IMG/VR virus record: IMGVR_UViG_3300041403_000072
Coordinates: 1-34,047 of that record
Reading direction: 5' to 3' (one strand)
DNA length: 34,047 bases
Origin: a virus
Of this stretch, positions 1,220 through 34,047 are shown in pieces; positions within the stretch are counted from its first letter, which is position 1; every line of letters starts with the position of its first letter. Below the pieces are notes generated by a model, which saw only the letters and a program-made list of their open reading frames with translations, was not told the DNA's origin and made no database searches. Made by a program: the position numbers and the translations under genes.

Positions 1220-1264
1220 TTCTATTTCCTCTCTCGTAAGGCCCTTGCGTTAGGGCATGGGTAC

Positions 1265-3568: not shown

Positions 3569-4105
3569 CTAGCCTTTGAGAAATAATTTTAGGTTCCGAT
3601 TAAGGTCTTCCATAGAACGAAGGGAAATATAGGGCAGGGTGCCTGCCTGCGTTCGCTCCGTCATGCCGTTACCGTGGGTCGTACCCGGAACCACTTCTTC
3701 ACAGTTCGCCCAGAACTGCCCCTTACTGATAAACCCCATCAGGTCGCAGCAGGCCGCTCGATCCCTAACCATCAGAACTGACGTAAAGACGTAGAAGGTA
3801 GTCTCCTGCCCCTTCTGGCTCATGGGAACCTGCGCCGCGTAGTCGCTCTTAGGGAGTACGGTGCGGTTCTTCGTCTTAACGTCAAAGGTTAGGCCCTGAA
3901 CGCTAAAGTCCGCGTTGTAGCTGTCCTTCCCGATGTAGTCGAAGGGTATCTCATGATCCGTTAGCCACCTTCCGAACACCGCCTCCCCGATATAGCCCAC
4001 ATACTGCCCAGCCCCGCCCTTGAGAAGCGTCGTCCCGTTAAAGGCTGCGTTCGAGCAGTTCGCTAGAGCCCATTTGTGGGCGTTGTCAGGGATCGGGTAG
4101 CGCAT
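3569..4105 (-). CDS. Probable PD-(D/E)XK nuclease-fold protein
   Basis: This 178-residue protein shows a PD-(D/E)XK-like signature: Glu41 in YIGEAVFGRWL, Asp66 in YNADF, and DVK at 75-77 (Asp75, Lys77), with a strand between as expected. Families with this arrangement include Holliday-junction resolvases and small phage or restriction endonucleases. The length suits a single-domain nuclease. It lies directly upstream of the SF2 helicase and downstream of the noncoding region 4106-4484. AAGGAAACGT precedes the ATG. It could process recombination intermediates or degrade host DNA; the assignment rests on motif pattern alone. Confidence 0.65.
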   Translation of the reverse strand: MRYPIPDNAHKWALANCSNAAFNGTTLLKGGAGQYVGYIGEAVFGRWLTDHEIPFDYIGKDSYNADFSVQGLTFDVKTKNRTVLPKSDYAAQVPMSQKGQETTFYVFTSVLMVRDRAACCDLMGFISKGQFWANCEEVVPGTTHGNGMTERTQAGTLPYISLRSMEDLNRNLKLFLKG

Positions 4106-4484
4106 ACGTTTCCTTAGGCAATAGTGGTCTTTTGAGGACTATTGGTGCCCCCACGCTAGAACTGCCTGCAATTTCCCGTTAGATCAGCGTCATCAGCAAC
4201 GATTTACCTGCGGCTCGTAACACCGCCCCCACGCTTTCGCGGCACCTGTACGCTGTTTATTCCCGTCCTCAAAGGTCCTGATCTAACATCTCGCTTTGCT
4301 GCTGGCTGCGCGATGCGACAGCACATCTTGTGGGGAGCAGTCCCAGTCGGCGCAAGATATGGACGAGATTTGGGGATTGAACGCCAGATATAGTGGCGTT
4401 ATAGTAGTCACCGCGTCGGGTGATCGATTCCAATCCTTCTCTCGTCGGCTCTTTAGGGGTTGCTAGCCCCACCGACGCATTCAA
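4106..4484 (-). ncRNA. Gene-free region rich in inverted repeats: candidate structured leader, RNA or replication region
   Basis: This is by far the longest stretch without a convincing gene. On the minus strand it would be transcribed from the promoter at 4485-4511 toward the nuclease and helicase genes. Stems seen directly: CGTCGG/CCGACG (4443-4448 and 4472-4477) enclosing GGGG/CCCC; TCACC/GGTGA (4408-4423); AACGCCA/TGGCGTT with a 7-base loop (4380-4400); ATCTTG/CAAGAT (4325-4358); the long-range GTTAGATCAG/CTGATCTAAC (4178-4187 and 4278-4287); and CAATAGT/ACTATTG (4119-4144) just before the nuclease gene. GCCCCCACGCT occurs twice (4147 and 4225). I do not recognise a known RNA family. A weak TTG-start frame (4269-4484) exists but begins inside the proposed -10. 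Confidence 0.45.
4178..4287. repeat. 10-bp inverted repeat with arms 100 bases apart
   Basis: GTTAGATCAG at 4178-4187 is the exact reverse complement of CTGATCTAAC at 4278-4287. In RNA it could close a domain of about 110 bases; in DNA it could be a protein-binding pair. One copy of the 11-bp direct repeat GCCCCCACGCT lies between the arms, at 4225-4235. Confidence 0.6.
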
Positions 4485-4511
4485 TTTATACCCCTTGAGA
4501 CGCCCTGTAAA
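4485..4511 (-). promoter_or_regulatory. Candidate leftward promoter of the divergent pair
   Basis: On the minus strand the -10 TATAAA (4490-4485) lies downstream of TTTACA (4511-4506) with a 15-base spacer, which is short; CTTTAC at 16 bases is an alternative -35. The -10 is embedded in AGGGGTATAA, the same 10 bases that contain the -10 of the opposing promoter. It would drive the structured leader and the nuclease-helicase genes. Confidence 0.4.
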
Positions 4512-4516
4512 GCGAT

Positions 4517-4545
4517 TTGACGGGTTTTAGCCCGAGGGGTATAAC
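4517..4545 (+). promoter_or_regulatory. Strong sigma70 promoter on the plus strand
   Basis: TTGACG (4517-4522) and TATAAC (4540-4545) are separated by exactly 17 bases, each one mismatch from consensus. It is the best promoter I find in the window and the only one that points against the genes. Transcription should start about seven bases downstream, near A4551, exactly at the base of the first hairpin of the RNA at 4551-4611. AGGGGTATAA around the -10 is the inverted copy of 4486-4495, which suggests shared control with the divergent promoter. Confidence 0.75.
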
Positions 4546-4550
4546 GTACT

Positions 4551-4611
4551 AGCTGGTGGCTCTCCCTCCTCTCTCCTGCCAGCTTTGGGCCCCTTCGGGG
4601 GCCCTTTTTTT
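4551..4611 (+). ncRNA. Putative anti-Shine-Dalgarno small RNA
   Basis: About 61 bases lie between a near-consensus promoter and an intrinsic terminator. The first hairpin pairs AGCTGG (4551-4556) with CCAGCT (4579-4584) and extends by two G-U pairs and a G-C pair, leaving the loop CTCTCCCTCCTCTCTC (4560-4575). This loop is pure pyrimidine and contains CCUCC, the complement of GGAGG, like the 3' tail of 16S rRNA. The second hairpin is the terminator. No reading frame fits within the transcript. The known concept is a trans-acting RNA with an anti-SD loop, as in the cuckoo family of proteobacterial RNAs. Loop segments match SD regions at 8824-8832 and 1227-1235 over nine bases, and at the starts of the genes at 5406 and 33866 over eight. 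The target choice is inference, because purine-rich SDs match easily. Confidence 0.7.
4587..4611 (+). terminator. Intrinsic terminator with UUCG loop
   Basis: GGGCCCC (4587-4593), loop TTCG, GGGGCCC (4598-4604) and seven T residues (4605-4611) form a textbook rho-independent terminator on the plus strand. On the minus strand no U-tract follows. It ends the small RNA and stops antisense transcription from entering the HNH gene at 4631-5035. Confidence 0.92.
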
Positions 4612-7654: not shown

Positions 7655-8250
7655 AGTCTGTACTTCTCCACGTTGGTTTTAATAGCCTCGCAGGCTTCTT
7701 CTACGATCTGCGAGAGGGTTTCAATGTACGCATCGTCCCGCTCGATCCGTACGATCAGGGTTTGCATATCAGGGTGGTAGGAAACGAAGTCCCACCATTC
7801 CCTACGGGTGATCCACATACAGCCCTGAACTTGAGGGATGTGCTTAGACGGCATGGTCCCGCCTCGAAGGGTTTCGATATGGGTATGGGGTAGGGGGCAC
7901 TTAATCTCTAAGCCGCCCATATCCCCTATGAAGCCATCAGGGCTACAGCCTGCCTCTAAGACGGCGTGCTTAATGAACCCCATCTCTACGACTTCGTTAT
8001 CGGTAGCGAACTCGTAGTAGGCTCTAGCGTGAGGTTCCAATTCGGTCCCTCTAGCCATAGCGTCGGTAGTAGGGAAGGGCGTTGCCTCACCTGTAATACG
8101 CTCTGCCACTAGTTGATTGACGTAAGAGTCAAAGGTAGAGGAACGCTTACCCGTAGGAGTGATTAGCTTTGAGAAGCTAGAAGCGGACGGCACGCCTAAA
8201 CGCGCCGCTAGCCATTCTTCCGTGCCTTGTTCTACGTTGATGACGCGCAT
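7651..8250 (-). CDS. YqaJ/lambda-Exo-type exonuclease
   Basis: This 199-residue protein belongs to the YqaJ family of PD-(D/E)XK recombinases. It starts with the typical GTEEWLAARLGVPSAS, contains ARGTELEP (68-73), then the active site SPDG...GGLEIKCP with Asp105, Glu115 and Lys117, and later VQGCMWITRREWWDFVSYHP. Such enzymes resect double-stranded DNA 5' to 3', leaving 3' tails for the annealing protein. The partner gene is directly upstream; the stop of one and the start of the other share a base. Length is normal for the family, and all catalytic residues are present. Confidence 0.95.
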   Translation of the reverse strand: MRVINVEQGTEEWLAARLGVPSASSFSKLITPTGKRSSTFDSYVNQLVAERITGEATPFPTTDAMARGTELEPHARAYYEFATDNEVVEMGFIKHAVLEAGCSPDGFIGDMGGLEIKCPLPHTHIETLRGGTMPSKHIPQVQGCMWITRREWWDFVSYHPDMQTLIVRIERDDAYIETLSQIVEEACEAIKTNVEKYRL

Positions 8251-8816
8251 CAGGCCCCCTTTGTTTCCATCTTCTTTTCCAGTGCCGCCAGAGCTTTAGG
8301 GAACCGCTCCTTAGGCATCTCCTGTAGGGACTTGATCTTGAACGCCATGAAGAACTTCTCTAGATCGGTTTCGGTCTCAACGATTAGAGCGTGCAGCAGC
8401 TTCTGCTCGTCCTCGTTGATCTTCTCCGGCTCATGGCCCTCGGGGAGGTCCTCGCCTGCATAGATGTAATGCCCCAATCCAAGCATCGAGAGACACTTGG
8501 TTAGGCAGCGCATCTTGCAAGTGTTCCGAGCGAAGGCGTCCGGGTTCTTAATCGCCTTATTCCGATGATCCATCACCGGGAGCCACATCATTTGGGAATG
8601 AGTAGCGCCCTCATGGTTTACCGTGATCGTGCAGGTGTACTCCACGGTTTCATCGGGGAAGGTTTCGGACGTAAAGCTGTAGGTCGTACCGGGGAAATGC
8701 TTACACATCGTCCCCCACGCCCACGCCCACGACAGATAAGTTAGGTTCTGCTTCTTCTCAGTGTGCTCGGAAACGTCAATGCGGGACAGGGTGTCCCAGA
8801 TCAGCTTAGGTAACAT
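8250..8816 (-). CDS. DUF1071-type single-strand annealing protein
   Basis: From the ATG at 8816 (AGGAG at ideal spacing) the protein has 188 residues. The segments NLTYLSWAWAWGTM, MMWLPVMDHRNKAI, MRCLTKCLSMLGLGHYIYAGEDLPEG are hallmarks of the DUF1071 family, which works as a phage recombinase pairing complementary single strands. It forms a two-gene unit with the YqaJ exonuclease. It leads a new transcript after a gap of about 160 bases. The SD region AGAGAGGAG is complementary to nine bases of the small RNA loop at 4566-4574. Codons upstream of 8816 add eight residues without a ribosome-binding site, so I rejected the longer start. Confidence 0.93.
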   Translation of the reverse strand: MLPKLIWDTLSRIDVSEHTEKKQNLTYLSWAWAWGTMCKHFPGTTYSFTSETFPDETVEYTCTITVNHEGATHSQMMWLPVMDHRNKAIKNPDAFARNTCKMRCLTKCLSMLGLGHYIYAGEDLPEGHEPEKINEDEQKLLHALIVETETDLEKFFMAFKIKSLQEMPKERFPKALAALEKKMETKGA

Positions 8817-8980
8817 GGGTGTTCTCCTCTCTAAACCCAAACGAATAATAACAGTTCTGTTTAGGTATGGGGGAGAAAGCCTTAGAACATTTCGCTATAA
8901 GAAAGGGGGTGCTAAGATCGAACCGCTGCGCTGGTTTTCCCGCCCGTTGCTAGCGTAGCAGGGGGCCTCCGGGCCCCCGT
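8817..8980 (-). promoter_or_regulatory. Intergenic region before the recombination operon
   Basis: About 160 bases without a gene separate the late block from the recombination block. It holds the hairpin at 8961-8978 and a small inverted repeat AACAG-AA-CTGTT about 40 bases before the start codon, which could be an operator. A TTATAG and a TATTAT could serve as -10 elements, but neither has a good -35, so I cannot name a specific promoter. Confidence 0.4.
8961..8978 (-). terminator. GC-rich hairpin after the structural gene at 8981
   Basis: GGGGGCC (8961-8967), loop of four, GGCCCCC (8972-8978) begins two bases after the stop of the gene at 8981-9694. No U-tract follows on the minus strand, so termination may be partial or the hairpin may protect the 3' end. 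The stem resembles those at 25421 and 4587. Confidence 0.5.
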
Positions 8981-25402: not shown

Positions 25403-25420
25403 TTCGTACCCCCGAGAGAA

Positions 25421-25440
25421 AGGGGGCCCGAAGGCCCCCT
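25421..25440 (-). terminator. Hairpin with UUCG loop after the coat gene
   Basis: AGGGGGCC (25421-25428) and GGCCCCCT (25433-25440) form an eight-base perfect stem; the minus-strand loop is TTCG, followed by TTTCTCTC. It lies nine bases after the coat stop. It probably terminates part of the transcripts, so that the coat gene is more strongly expressed than the connectors downstream. Confidence 0.75.
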
Positions 25441-25448
25441 GATACCTC

Positions 25449-26594
25449 TTAGCCGAGGAGGAGAGCGATGAAGTCAGGCTTCCAAGCCTTGACACCCCAT
25501 GCTGCTGCCACTTCGATCATGGTCTTACGATAGCCGCGATAAACGCGAATCTCGAACACGAGCCCGGAGAAGGGGTCCTGAACGGTCATTGCGTCATCGG
25601 CAGCATCGCCACCTTCCGGCACAGCAGGAGCGCGCATTGCGATCTCCAGAGCCCGACGGTGGAAGGCCACGTTAGCGGTGTAGCTGTTACCTACGGTGAT
25701 AGCCGCGTTATCAGCGAGAGCCAGACGCAGACCGGGAGCCCCGATTGCGAATGCGCCGCCAGCAAGAGCGGTGTTCACGACATACTTGTTCGTGTCACCG
25801 TTGAAGGTCACAACGTCGCCCGCGAGGATGGTGCCAGAGCCGCCGTCAGCAGCGATGCTGGTGTCGCCAATGGCGGACGAAGCATCGTTGAGCAGGTAGC
25901 TTGCGCCGGTCCCTTTGGTGTGCGCTTGAACCTGAGCGGACTCACGCAGGGACAGGCCCTGAAGCTCAAGCAGCGTACCTTGGCGAAGCAGGTCAGCCCC
26001 ACCGGCCTCGTTCACCTTCTGAAGCTGAGCAAGCTGACGCAGGTTCGTACCAGCGACAGTGTTCAGGACCAGAGAGGCTTGGCCGTCGTTAGCAGGCATA
26101 CCGTTGTCCACCAGAATCTGGCGAAGCTCGGCCACTTCGGAGAAGTTGCTTGCGAACGGGGTCGTGCCAGCGGTGCCGAATGCGCGGGATGCGTTCTTGT
26201 ACGCTTCCTCTGCAAGATCGGCTTCCATCTCGTTCACGAGAGCGCGCATAGCTTGGGCGATCTGATCGCCGTACACGGTCTCAAAGCCCACACCGTTGTT
26301 CAGGTGGCGGATATCCTCACCCGTGTAGGGGATTTGGACAGCGCGGCTGTTGGAGATGGAGAGAGTCTTATTGTCCACGGTCTGATCGGTCCCCTCGGGG
26401 ATCGTCATTGCCTCGGACACATCGACCACGCTAGCAGCGCGAGTGAATGCAGCACGGACGGTATCGCCCTTTGCTACACGCTCGGAGCCATTAGCGTTGA
26501 TGGTAGCCGCAGGGATGAAGCCGGTTAGCTCCCGCCCCACCACATCAGCAGCGACGTAGATGTCGGCTGCCAAGTTCGTCAGTACGTTAGCCAT
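25449..26594 (-). CDS. Major capsid protein, P22-coat type
   Basis: This 381-residue protein starts MANVLTNLAADIYVAADVVGRELTGFIPAATIN and contains GDTVRAAFTRAASVVDVSEA, followed by VQIPYTGEDI, NEMEADLAEEAYKNASRAFG, and ends RKTMIEVAAAWGVKAWKPDFIALLLG. These are typical of the P22 gp5 coat family: HK97 fold with an inserted domain (near 230-290). Length is slightly shorter than P22 coat (430). GGAGG precedes the ATG, and a scaffold gene precedes the coat gene, as in P22-like heads. Confidence 0.93.
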   Translation of the reverse strand: MANVLTNLAADIYVAADVVGRELTGFIPAATINANGSERVAKGDTVRAAFTRAASVVDVSEAMTIPEGTDQTVDNKTLSISNSRAVQIPYTGEDIRHLNNGVGFETVYGDQIAQAMRALVNEMEADLAEEAYKNASRAFGTAGTTPFASNFSEVAELRQILVDNGMPANDGQASLVLNTVAGTNLRQLAQLQKVNEAGGADLLRQGTLLELQGLSLRESAQVQAHTKGTGASYLLNDASSAIGDTSIAADGGSGTILAGDVVTFNGDTNKYVVNTALAGGAFAIGAPGLRLALADNAAITVGNSYTANVAFHRRALEIAMRAPAVPEGGDAADDAMTVQDPFSGLVFEIRVYRGYRKTMIEVAAAWGVKAWKPDFIALLLG

Positions 26595-31768: not shown

Positions 31769-32605
31769 TTAGGCCCCCTGCTTTACCCGTGGGTCTATCG
31801 CTTGGGCCCGCTTTCTTGCCCGCTCTGTTGCTTTCTGCTTTGAGCGTTTAAGCTCCTCCGCTTTAGGTAAACAGTGCTGCAAGTTTGAAAGGGTGTAGAA
31901 CACTACGCTTGAACGCTCCCAGTTCTTAGCCTTTGGGATGATAGGCGTTACCCCGTGGGGAATGCTTACCCCATCAACGACAACTAAAGCGCCGTGCGAT
32001 TGCGCCAGTGCCAGCTTGAACTGAGGCATTACGAAATAGCCTCCGTCAATATTTTTCTTAGTTATTAAGACGTTACTGTACACGCCGCCATAGTTAGCCG
32101 CGTCAACATGGTAGCCGATAGCAAAGTTTTTATTGACGTTGACGGTTGTAAATGGGGTGCCTGTCTTTTTCCAATCATCGTGGATACCGCCTACAAACTT
32201 CTGAAAGTTAGCAGCAACTTCGGGGAAGCTGTTCTGGTATACGCCCCATAGGTACTTCCCCACCTTTGAAAGGCCAGCGAACACCTCTGGCTGCGCTCTG
32301 GTTTGCGCGGAAAACCTGCAATAGTCCTCCCGAACCGCGATTCTCGGCAATGCGCCATAAACCGCTGACATTTGGTTTACCCCAAGGGTGCGTGACGCCT
32401 TTGAAACTTTGGCTTTCGCGGTACAGGCATTCAGAATTGCGAGCGTATCTTCTGGCAGCACCCTATAGGCACAGACCAGCCTGCCGTTATGGTAGATATC
32501 GGCAGGTTCGTCAATTAAGGTGTCGTAATGGCTTGGCGGGGGCGTTTTGCCCTTCCAGTGCTTGTAGTCGAACCCGTAATCTACCGCCTCTATACGCCTT
32601 ACCAC
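31769..32605 (-). CDS. TET/JBP-like Fe(II)/2-oxoglutarate dioxygenase, putative DNA base hydroxylase
   Basis: This 278-residue protein shows the core of the TET/JBP family: H-x-D in GYHVDAANYGG (His166, Asp168, with Asn171), then GGYFVMPQFKLAL, then DGVSIPHGVTPI with the second metal His217, and ERSSVVFY with Arg231 to bind 2-oxoglutarate. The HGVTP...R-x-S-x-V-F-Y ending parallels the HATTP...RISLVFY ending of TET enzymes. Known members oxidise the methyl group of thymine (JBP) or 5-methylcytosine (TET). No cytosine methyltransferase or glycosyltransferase is visible here. The GTG start overlaps the end of the ParB-like gene, with AAAGGA upstream; terminase follows. The basic C-terminal tail may bind DNA. 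The substrate is inference. Confidence 0.85.
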   Translation of the reverse strand: MVRRIEAVDYGFDYKHWKGKTPPPSHYDTLIDEPADIYHNGRLVCAYRVLPEDTLAILNACTAKAKVSKASRTLGVNQMSAVYGALPRIAVREDYCRFSAQTRAQPEVFAGLSKVGKYLWGVYQNSFPEVAANFQKFVGGIHDDWKKTGTPFTTVNVNKNFAIGYHVDAANYGGVYSNVLITKKNIDGGYFVMPQFKLALAQSHGALVVVDGVSIPHGVTPIIPKAKNWERSSVVFYTLSNLQHCLPKAEELKRSKQKATERARKRAQAIDPRVKQGA

Positions 32606-33195
32606 TTGCTGGCTTCCTTTAGCACTAAATCAAAAACCAGCGTCGAATAGTCCTCTGCCCCGGTATGCGCCAGCCCTGCGTCCAGCTTTTCGACAATCAC
32701 CTCTAATTCTTCTTGGCTGTAGGCAAGGCGCAGAATCTTTGTGTCCCCGTTAAGAAAGTTCTCCAGCTTTTCTTCTGGCGTTAGCCCAAGCGGTACGTCT
32801 TCAGGGTCTACTAGCCGTAAAACCTCGTCGCTTAACCCAAGTAGGGTAGTGTCAAAGTCAAGCTCTGCTAGCCTCTCTACTTCCCCTTTAAGGGTATCGA
32901 TATCCCAGCCTGCATTCATGGCAAGGGAGTTGTCAGCGATGACGTAAGCGCGTTTCTGGGCCTCTGACAGTCCGGTGAGGGTAATCGTAGGGACTTCTTC
33001 CATGCCGAGAGCGTTCGCGGCTTCGAGCCTACCATGCCCAGCAATGATGCCGCCTGCTTCGTCGATCAGGATTGGATTCGTAAACCCGAACTCTTTAATG
33101 GATTCTACGATCTGACCGACTTGTTCCTTACTATGCGTGCGGCTGTTGTTCTCGTACGGCGTAAGGTCTACCGCCCTGCGGTATTCGATCTGCAT
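32599..33195 (-). CDS. Stand-alone ParB/Srx-fold protein, partner of the dioxygenase
   Basis: This 198-residue protein has an N-terminal ParB-type nuclease-fold domain: NNSRTHSKEQ (16-25), FTNPILID and IIAGHGRLEAAN with GHGR at 53-56, then VIADN. This version is usually fused to phage DNA methyltransferases; here no methylase domain follows, and the C-terminal ~90 residues are acidic and helical. It is not a partition ParB: there is no HTH or ParA. Overlap with the TET/JBP-like gene suggests a joint pathway of DNA modification, with this protein providing DNA binding or a nucleotide-dependent step. A hairpin at 33200-33220 may mask its SD. Confidence 0.9.
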   Translation of the reverse strand: MQIEYRRAVDLTPYENNSRTHSKEQVGQIVESIKEFGFTNPILIDEAGGIIAGHGRLEAANALGMEEVPTITLTGLSEAQKRAYVIADNSLAMNAGWDIDTLKGEVERLAELDFDTTLLGLSDEVLRLVDPEDVPLGLTPEEKLENFLNGDTKILRLAYSQEELEVIVEKLDAGLAHTGAEDYSTLVFDLVLKEASKW

Positions 33196-33368: not shown

Positions 33369-33565
33369 TGCTTTATCTCCCCTGCCGCTTCCCACTTAGC
33401 CATAATCTTAGCCGCCTCCTCCTGCTGCTTCTCAATTAAGCGTGCGAAGGCGTGCATCATGGACGATACGAGCGCTGCTTCCTCCTCCGTAGGGTCCCCC
33501 TCAAAGATCACGCCAAGGTTCTGCTCCTCGGCGTCCCAGATGATCTCGTCCACCTTAAAGGTCAT
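33365..33565 (-). CDS. Small acidic helical protein
   Basis: This 66-residue protein begins with strands (TFKVDEIIWDAEEQNLGVIFEG) and continues into a helix (EEEAALVSSMMHAFARLIEKQQEEAAKIMAKW). It is acidic and has no recognised family. It overlaps the preceding gene by 11 bases and has only a weak SD (GGATGGG), so it is likely coupled. Its role is unknown. Confidence 0.7.
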   Translation of the reverse strand: MTFKVDEIIWDAEEQNLGVIFEGDPTEEEAALVSSMMHAFARLIEKQQEEAAKIMAKWEAAGEIKH

Positions 33566-33866
33566 AGTGGCCCATCCGCATATCCTCCATCTTTTTATGG
33601 AAGGCGTCGGAGCAGATCAAGAACTCCTCTACTTCCTTCTCATAGTCCGCTTTCAGAACTTTAGCCCTTGCCTCTTTCGTCGTGTTCTCTGCAAGAATCA
33701 TGGCAAGGTCAGACATTTCTAGCCCTTGAGTCTGAAAAAGATAGACGAGGCTTTCCCCGTCCGATGCGTTCTTGTCTATCCACTCGTCAACGTAATACTT
33801 CGCCTGCTCTACCACCATATCCCGAGTCTCCTGCCACCATTCGTAATTCTCGTCATAATCTCGCAT
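33555..33866 (-). CDS. Acidic hypothetical protein leading the packaging cluster
   Basis: This 103-residue protein is acidic and helical (MRDYDENYEWWQETRDMVVEQAKYYVDEWID, DFLICSDAFHKKMEDMRMGHYDL-type end). No family is recognised. It is the first gene after the intergenic region 33867-33957 and so starts the long leftward run. AAGGGAGAG precedes the ATG; eight bases of this SD region are complementary to the loop of the small RNA at 4551-4611. Confidence 0.75.
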   Translation of the reverse strand: MRDYDENYEWWQETRDMVVEQAKYYVDEWIDKNASDGESLVYLFQTQGLEMSDLAMILAENTTKEARAKVLKADYEKEVEEFLICSDAFHKKMEDMRMGHYDL

Positions 33867-33957
33867 GGTTCTCTCCCTTTGAACTATTAAGCAATCCTTA
33901 CACGTTCCGCATTTTTCTGCGGACAGTTTGCGGTGATTGACGCACTTTTCTGCGCAA
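33867..33957 (-). promoter_or_regulatory. Intergenic region with two hairpins before the packaging cluster
   Basis: On the minus strand, GTGATTG-CGCA pairs with TGCG-T-CAATCAC (one bulged T; loop GAAAAG) just after the end of the last gene, followed by TCCGCA-GAAAAA-TGCGGA (33907-33924 region). Both loops are GA-rich and the stems share GCGCA/CCGCA. Neither has a U-tract. Promoter elements for the downstream genes should lie here, but I find no good sigma70 pair, so the initiation signal is uncertain. The same sequence occurs at bases 1-38. Confidence 0.5.
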
Positions 33958-34047
33958 TCACTCTAACCCCGTTGCTTTCCGAATAGCCGCCGCAAAACTC
34001 TCCATCGCGGGCTTTTCTGGGTCAACGCCAATTCCGTACAGCATCCA
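33922..34047. repeat. Terminal direct repeat, right copy
   Basis: This is the exact second copy of bases 3-128 and marks the overlap of a circular genome assembly. It should be removed from gene counts. Confidence 0.93.
33958..34047 (-). CDS. 3' part of the HTPGPW-type gene, repeated by circular overlap
   Basis: The last 90 bases repeat the final 30 codons (including stop) of the gene at 39-323 and run off the window edge. It is the same gene seen twice, not a third paralogue or a broken gene. Confidence 0.9.
   Translation of the reverse strand, partial: WMLYGIGVDPEKPAMESFAAAIRKATGLE

Follow-up and report, generated by a model that had tools for sequence, protein, structure and literature searches.

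The RNA regulators of phages known so far are mostly lysogeny switches or act on single host targets. Among the described systems closest to the locus considered here, the c4 antisense RNA of phages P1 and P7 and the sar RNA of P22 are phage small RNAs in which loop complementarity at a ribosome-binding site (RBS) blocks a phage message (PMC12197685), and PreS of lambda and VpdS of VP882 are phage-encoded trans-acting RNAs that retune expression during infection (PMC12197685). NfeR1, of the cuckoo (alpha-r14) family, is a short RNA with an unpaired loop motif resembling the anti-Shine-Dalgarno (anti-SD) sequence, variable stems and a terminator, and it acts at translation initiation regions (PMC10746234). 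The alpha-r14 RNAs (suhB, mmgR, NfeR1) are chromosomal and have three hairpins each with the ultraconserved motif CCUCCUCCC (PMC10746234).

The window, i.e. the whole stretch of DNA analysed (34,047 nt), probably represents the whole, closed genome (about 33.9 kb) of a tailed phage, as suggested by a direct terminal repeat of 126 nt (positions 1–128 and 33922–34047). All recognisable protein genes of the record, from terminase and portal to helicase, are located on the minus strand. Their protein relatives come from phages of Vibrio, Salicola, Rhizobium and Klebsiella at approximately 33–51% identity, a mixture too broad for a host call, and searches of genome contigs, by the conserved neighbour motif or by an alignment of the Sak-like ssDNA annealing protein (SSAP), gave no match, so that neither a host nor a prophage was identified. 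A queuine tRNA-ribosyltransferase gene and a ParB-like nuclease gene, both assigned by family match (31769–32605 and 32599–33195), adjoin the terminase genes and are possibly a base-modification or host-takeover pair. The first-pass annotation had described the plus strand as empty apart from one small RNA, which holds for proteins but not for RNA signals, as that strand also bears P1, a further conserved promoter, and a structured region that is conserved too. The features of the locus are as follows:

4377–4405, plus strand: upstream promoter P1, TTGAAC-17-TATAGT
4415–4480, plus strand: hairpin C, a conserved structured segment downstream of P1, GCGUCGG...CCGACGC
4483–4511, minus strand: divergent promoter P3, TTTACA-17-TAAATT, next to P2 and directed towards gene 3569–4105 and the helicase
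4517–4545, plus strand: promoter P2 of the small RNA, TTGACG-17-TATAAC (-35 at 4517–4522, -10 at 4540–4545)
4551–4611, plus strand: candidate small RNA of 61 nt, comprising a 9-bp stem, a 16-nt pyrimidine loop, a terminator and T7
4551–4559/4576–4584, plus strand: loop stem AGCUGGUGG/CUGCCAGCU, 9 bp
4560–4575, plus strand: seed loop CUCUCCCUCCUCUCUC, 16 nt, all pyrimidine, complementary to the RBS of the phage's own genes
4587–4611, plus strand: intrinsic terminator, GGGCCCC-UUCG-GGGGCCC at 4587–4604 and T7 at 4605–4611

The near-consensus promoter, 61-base predicted transcript and strong terminator noticed at first pass were confirmed base by base, and the two hairpins, the first with a pyrimidine-only loop of 16 bases, were recovered both in the sequence and in the predicted fold. 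P2 agrees with the sigma-70-type consensus at 10 of 12 positions and has a spacer of 17 nt; a rule-based promoter scan found the terminator and missed P2, only because its rule requires T at position 6 of the -10 hexamer. In the predicted transcript, AGCUGGUGG, CUCUCCCUCCUCUCUC and CUGCCAGCU follow one another and are succeeded by two U, GGGCCCC-UUCG-GGGGCCC and U7. The fold has an energy of -28 kcal/mol (z = -3.2; 1 of 200 shuffles equally good), with the loop predicted to be 98.5% unpaired. Scanning approximately 1.8 Mb of fetched, partly redundant DNA for the layout (a pyrimidine loop of 9+ within a stem of 6+ bp, then a terminator) returned the relatives of the element and one unrelated site, in L042, and nothing else.

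Relatives were NinG-adjacent contigs taken from IMG/VR. The covariance search for the hairpin-loop-terminator layout that had been proposed was run, and the same layout, with pyrimidine loop, terminator and 17-nt promoter spacing, is kept in eight contigs from related metagenomic phages, including a near-identical pair. Type A phages comprise the window, L002/L071, L006/L033, L007/L043 and L008/L041, and type B phages L003/L054, L004/L090, L005/L058 and L009/L063. The type A loop is CUCUCCCUCCUCUC(UC); the type B loop is UCCC(C)UCUCUCUCC or UCUCCCCUCUCUCUCU and has no CCUCC, and the type B RNA carries an extra 5' hairpin, giving two hairpins before the terminator. The fold is alike in all relatives, and the covariance-model score is 87 bits for the window element and 64–87 bits for the related contigs. 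Among seven distinct sequences, standard pairs occupy 97.2% of the pair cells. The covariation score of 0.289 compares with 0.159 for shuffles (0/500), and slid partners give 0.08 or less. Both partners have changed in four pairs; three of these belong to the loop stem and the fourth to the terminator (pair 41–52, by position in A2, from C-G to G-C in relatives). The 17-nt spacer of P2 is kept despite other hexamers in L071, L054, L058, L063 and L090, the hexamers found being TTGACG/TATAAC, TTGACG/TATGTT, TTGCTC/TATATT, TTGATC/TATATT and TTGTTA/TATATT. As judged from this comparison, the hairpin at 4517–4611(+) is not due to chance, since the same layout is kept in eight related contigs with compensatory changes in the stem, and 4517–4611 is an independent candidate small RNA gene with its own promoter and intrinsic terminator, both conserved in relatives.

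Relatives that keep the flanking genes and have lost loop and stem had been named as evidence against such a gene; at a NinG identity of at least 78%, the element was found in 8/8 contigs, and at about 63% or less a different pyrimidine-loop RNA replaces it. The final NinG search added no new type A or B members, nor did a strict layout scan of a sample of more distant SSAP-bearing loci reveal further ones, and isolate phages and plasmids gave no blastn match to the region. An exact-loop search of IMG/VR returned 19 contigs, with stem and terminator in the near relatives L033, L041 and L043 only; the other exact-loop matches are coding sequence or simple pyrimidine tracts. Weaker covariance-model matches (window 25415–25474 and L094/L089) were rejected: they fall on an ordinary late-operon terminator, and their pyrimidine stretch belongs to coding sequence. 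At L090 3167–3227 (-) and L097 17809–17868 (+), two further elements show the hairpin-plus-terminator layout of the small RNA, have loops around UUCCSGCCCGU and possibly represent a sister small RNA with another address.

Target prediction at phage start regions, also proposed at first pass, was based on exact complements of at least 9 nt to the phage's own loop outside the RNA locus, with the near-duplicate contig G006 excluded. Such complements lie just before a start codon in 18 of 20 cases on the mRNA strand versus 1 of 5 on the antisense strand, a count in which some sites may precede ORFs other than real genes. The sites in the window are:

8824–8832, minus strand: predicted target AGAGAGGAG, 7 nt before ATG 8816 of the SSAP gene (8250–8816)
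1227–1235, minus strand: predicted target GAGAGAGGA, 7 nt before the ATG of gene 794–1219
33871–33878, minus strand: probable target AGGGAGAG, before gene 33555–33866

The SSAP start was taken as ATG 8816, not the TTG at 8840. Distant homologues of gene 33555–33866 in type B phages have GAGAGAGAGG / AGAGAGAGGG, and sites of the GAGAGAGAGG type stand before SSAP and several small genes in these phages. In permuted-loop tests, loop A matched 7 RBS sites in type A phages versus 0.97 expected (p = 0.005), and loop B matched 10 in type B phages versus 0.95 expected (p = 0.006). Loop B had no RBS sites in type A phages; loop A had four in type B genomes (p = 0.09), the two loops having CUCUC stretches in common. 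Seven other related contigs without these loops contained no RBS match of 9 nt for loop A or B. Local folds count against the target reading, in that the sites are no more than roughly as accessible as the sequence around them. In G005/G006, the GAGAGAGGA site is retained together with its leader (window 1227–1235; L092 1282–1290), in front of a different gene (141 aa vs 69 aa).

The SSAP gene is present in all phage groups, and its RBS is AGAGAGGAG in type A, AGAGAGAG or GAGAGAGGG in type B, and UGAGGAG(AC) in types C and D. Before this gene, type A loops pair with AGAGAGGAG and type B loops with AGAGAGAG or GAGAGAGGG; more distant relatives have a different RNA, the loop of which pairs with UGAGGAGAC. 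Type C phages do not have the type A/B RNA; what follows P1 and hairpin C in them is another structure (GGCCGG...CCGGCC or GGGCCAG...CUGGCCC, ending in a U-rich tail) with the loop GUCUCCUC(A/U)(A/C/U)UCCCC, which pairs over 7–11 nt with type C SSAP sites. This RNA is structurally independent yet again exposes a matching loop. The longest match of A sites is 9 with the main type A loop and 7 with B loops, that of B sites 8–9 with B loops and 4–6 with C loops, and that of C sites 7–11 with C loops, 6 with A and 5 with B. This block pattern is clear by contiguous match and weaker by energy alone, since type A SSAP sites would also accept type C loops, and types A, B and C/D represent only few independent lineages. 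Pyrimidine loops in general pair to some extent with any purine-rich SD.

The surroundings of the small RNA are conserved as well. The 17-nt spacing of P1 is kept with other hexamers in most relatives, L071 having no good P1 and L055 a best fit at 18 nt, and hairpin C (GCGUCGGGUGA...CCACCGACGC) is nearly invariant across types A, B and C (window; L050, L055, L062, L069). The non-coding region 4119–4374, which adjoins the small RNA, is conserved across 15 distinct sequences from four phage groups, with strong covariation: 16 of 34 pairs are changed on both sides, with 69 such cells versus 23 in shuffles. Two long helices, TTGAGGAC/GTCCTCAA and GTTAGATCAG/CTGATCTAAC, cross each other, no Rfam match was found for the region, and it is a candidate for a new pseudoknotted structured RNA on either strand. 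In type C phages (L051, L055, L060, L062, L069), the helicase RBS (GAGAGGAC or GAGGAGG) changes in step with a pyrimidine tract upstream that matches it (GTCCTCTC or CCTCCTC), which suggests a cis hairpin hiding the SD in the helicase leader. Gene 3569–4105 had no relatives in IMG/VR. P3, which reads towards it, has the form TTGATA/TTGCGA/TTGCTT-17-TATAAA in type B.

On sequence and comparison, the locus combines its own promoter, an unpaired pyrimidine loop, a terminator, compensatory conservation and type-matched RBS complementarity, and it is probably a phage-encoded gene for a trans-acting antisense small RNA by which the phage blocks the start of translation in a small self-regulon, SSAP among its members. 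The dedicated small RNA gene with an RBS-directed role in trans envisaged at first pass is supported. Two uses had been offered for it; the scheduling of phage translation is supported, and the silencing of host messages found no support. The host RNA polymerase would transcribe the RNA from P2, and the loop would form 8–10 bp with the extended Shine-Dalgarno in the mRNA of SSAP and in a few other phage messages, presumably keeping the 30S subunit off and lowering their translation. As sigma-70-type P2 and leftward-reading P3 are arranged back to back, we infer that synthesis of the RNA would coincide with transcription of the leftward operon and that the RNA would turn down its target gene set while accumulating.

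That the small RNA is real and its loop acts otherwise, as a protein or Hfq sponge, in translation activation or on a single host target, is unlikely. The RBS matches would then reflect a shared purine-rich SD habit, and SDs are indeed purine-rich in all genomes and the permutation p values moderate (0.005–0.006); however, the matches differ by phage type outside the common SD core and are missing from related phages that have other loops. It is quite improbable that the RNA is a general anti-SD decoy or silencer directed against host messages or ribosome binding in general, leading to host shut-off. The type A loop contains CCUCCU, as does the 16S tail, and the mean pairing of all start regions is somewhat stronger than that of the genome at large, but CCUCC is lost from type B loops, whose targets GAGAGAGAG pair poorly with the 16S tail, and the matches single out a few own-phage genes and shift with phage type. 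Simple mimicry of the 16S anti-SD tail, as first proposed, is disfavoured by the same loss, the type B loops still matching their own phage's unusual GAGAGAGAGG sites, and the data can be explained without a general host shut-off. It is very improbable that the hairpins serve only to stop transcription of the converging NinG operon, or read-through from P1, and that no RNA functions there in its own right. Although the NinG stop is 20 nt away and the terminator hairpin is perfect, AAAG rather than T follows the hairpin on the NinG strand, and the pyrimidine loop, the stem and the constant-spacing promoter are all kept beside the terminator.

Beyond the trans-acting antisense RNA itself, there is an about even chance that the loops and sites constitute an RNA address code, in which a subset of genes with an extended, non-16S Shine-Dalgarno variant would be read by a self-encoded small RNA, code and reader co-evolving between phage types as a protein-free translational regulon for recombination and small early genes. 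If true, a small RNA linking several unlinked phage genes via a matching Shine-Dalgarno variant would provide compact timing of phage translation; such RNAs could be found in other phages by simple sequence rules, and the natural variants of loop and site already amount to a ready-made swap experiment. In the openly accessible literature, of incomplete coverage, no phage anti-SD RNA with a self-regulon was found.

As in the cuckoo/alpha-r14 RNAs, an anti-SD-like motif is here unpaired in a loop and the stem sequence is variable; unlike them, the element has a single pyrimidine loop, CUCUCCCUCCUCUCUC, in one hairpin, with a motif that changes between phages, and belongs to a tailed-phage genome rather than an alphaproteobacterial chromosome. 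The cuckoo-type membership suggested in the first-pass annotation is not supported, given the Rfam scores (no gathering match for the window or three relatives; suhB RF00519 at 15.3–19.7 bits against a cutoff of 41) and the absence of the defining CCUCCUCCC motif from the phage RNA, the type B loops being without CCUCC as well. PreS targets host dnaN and VpdS ties quorum sensing to phage replication; unlike the present RNA, neither is reported to have an anti-SD loop that fits a group of start sites in its own phage. In common with c4 and sar, the loop here is complementary to the RBS of genes of the same phage. A full Rfam 15 scan gave no match, including to the c4-type antisense RNA, and no antirepressor was found among the PHROG matches of the scanned ORFs, the predicted targets being SSAP, gene 794–1219 and others. 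The gene controlled by c4 and sar is the antirepressor ant, within an immunity circuit; here the conserved predicted target is a recombination gene, together with several unlinked genes.
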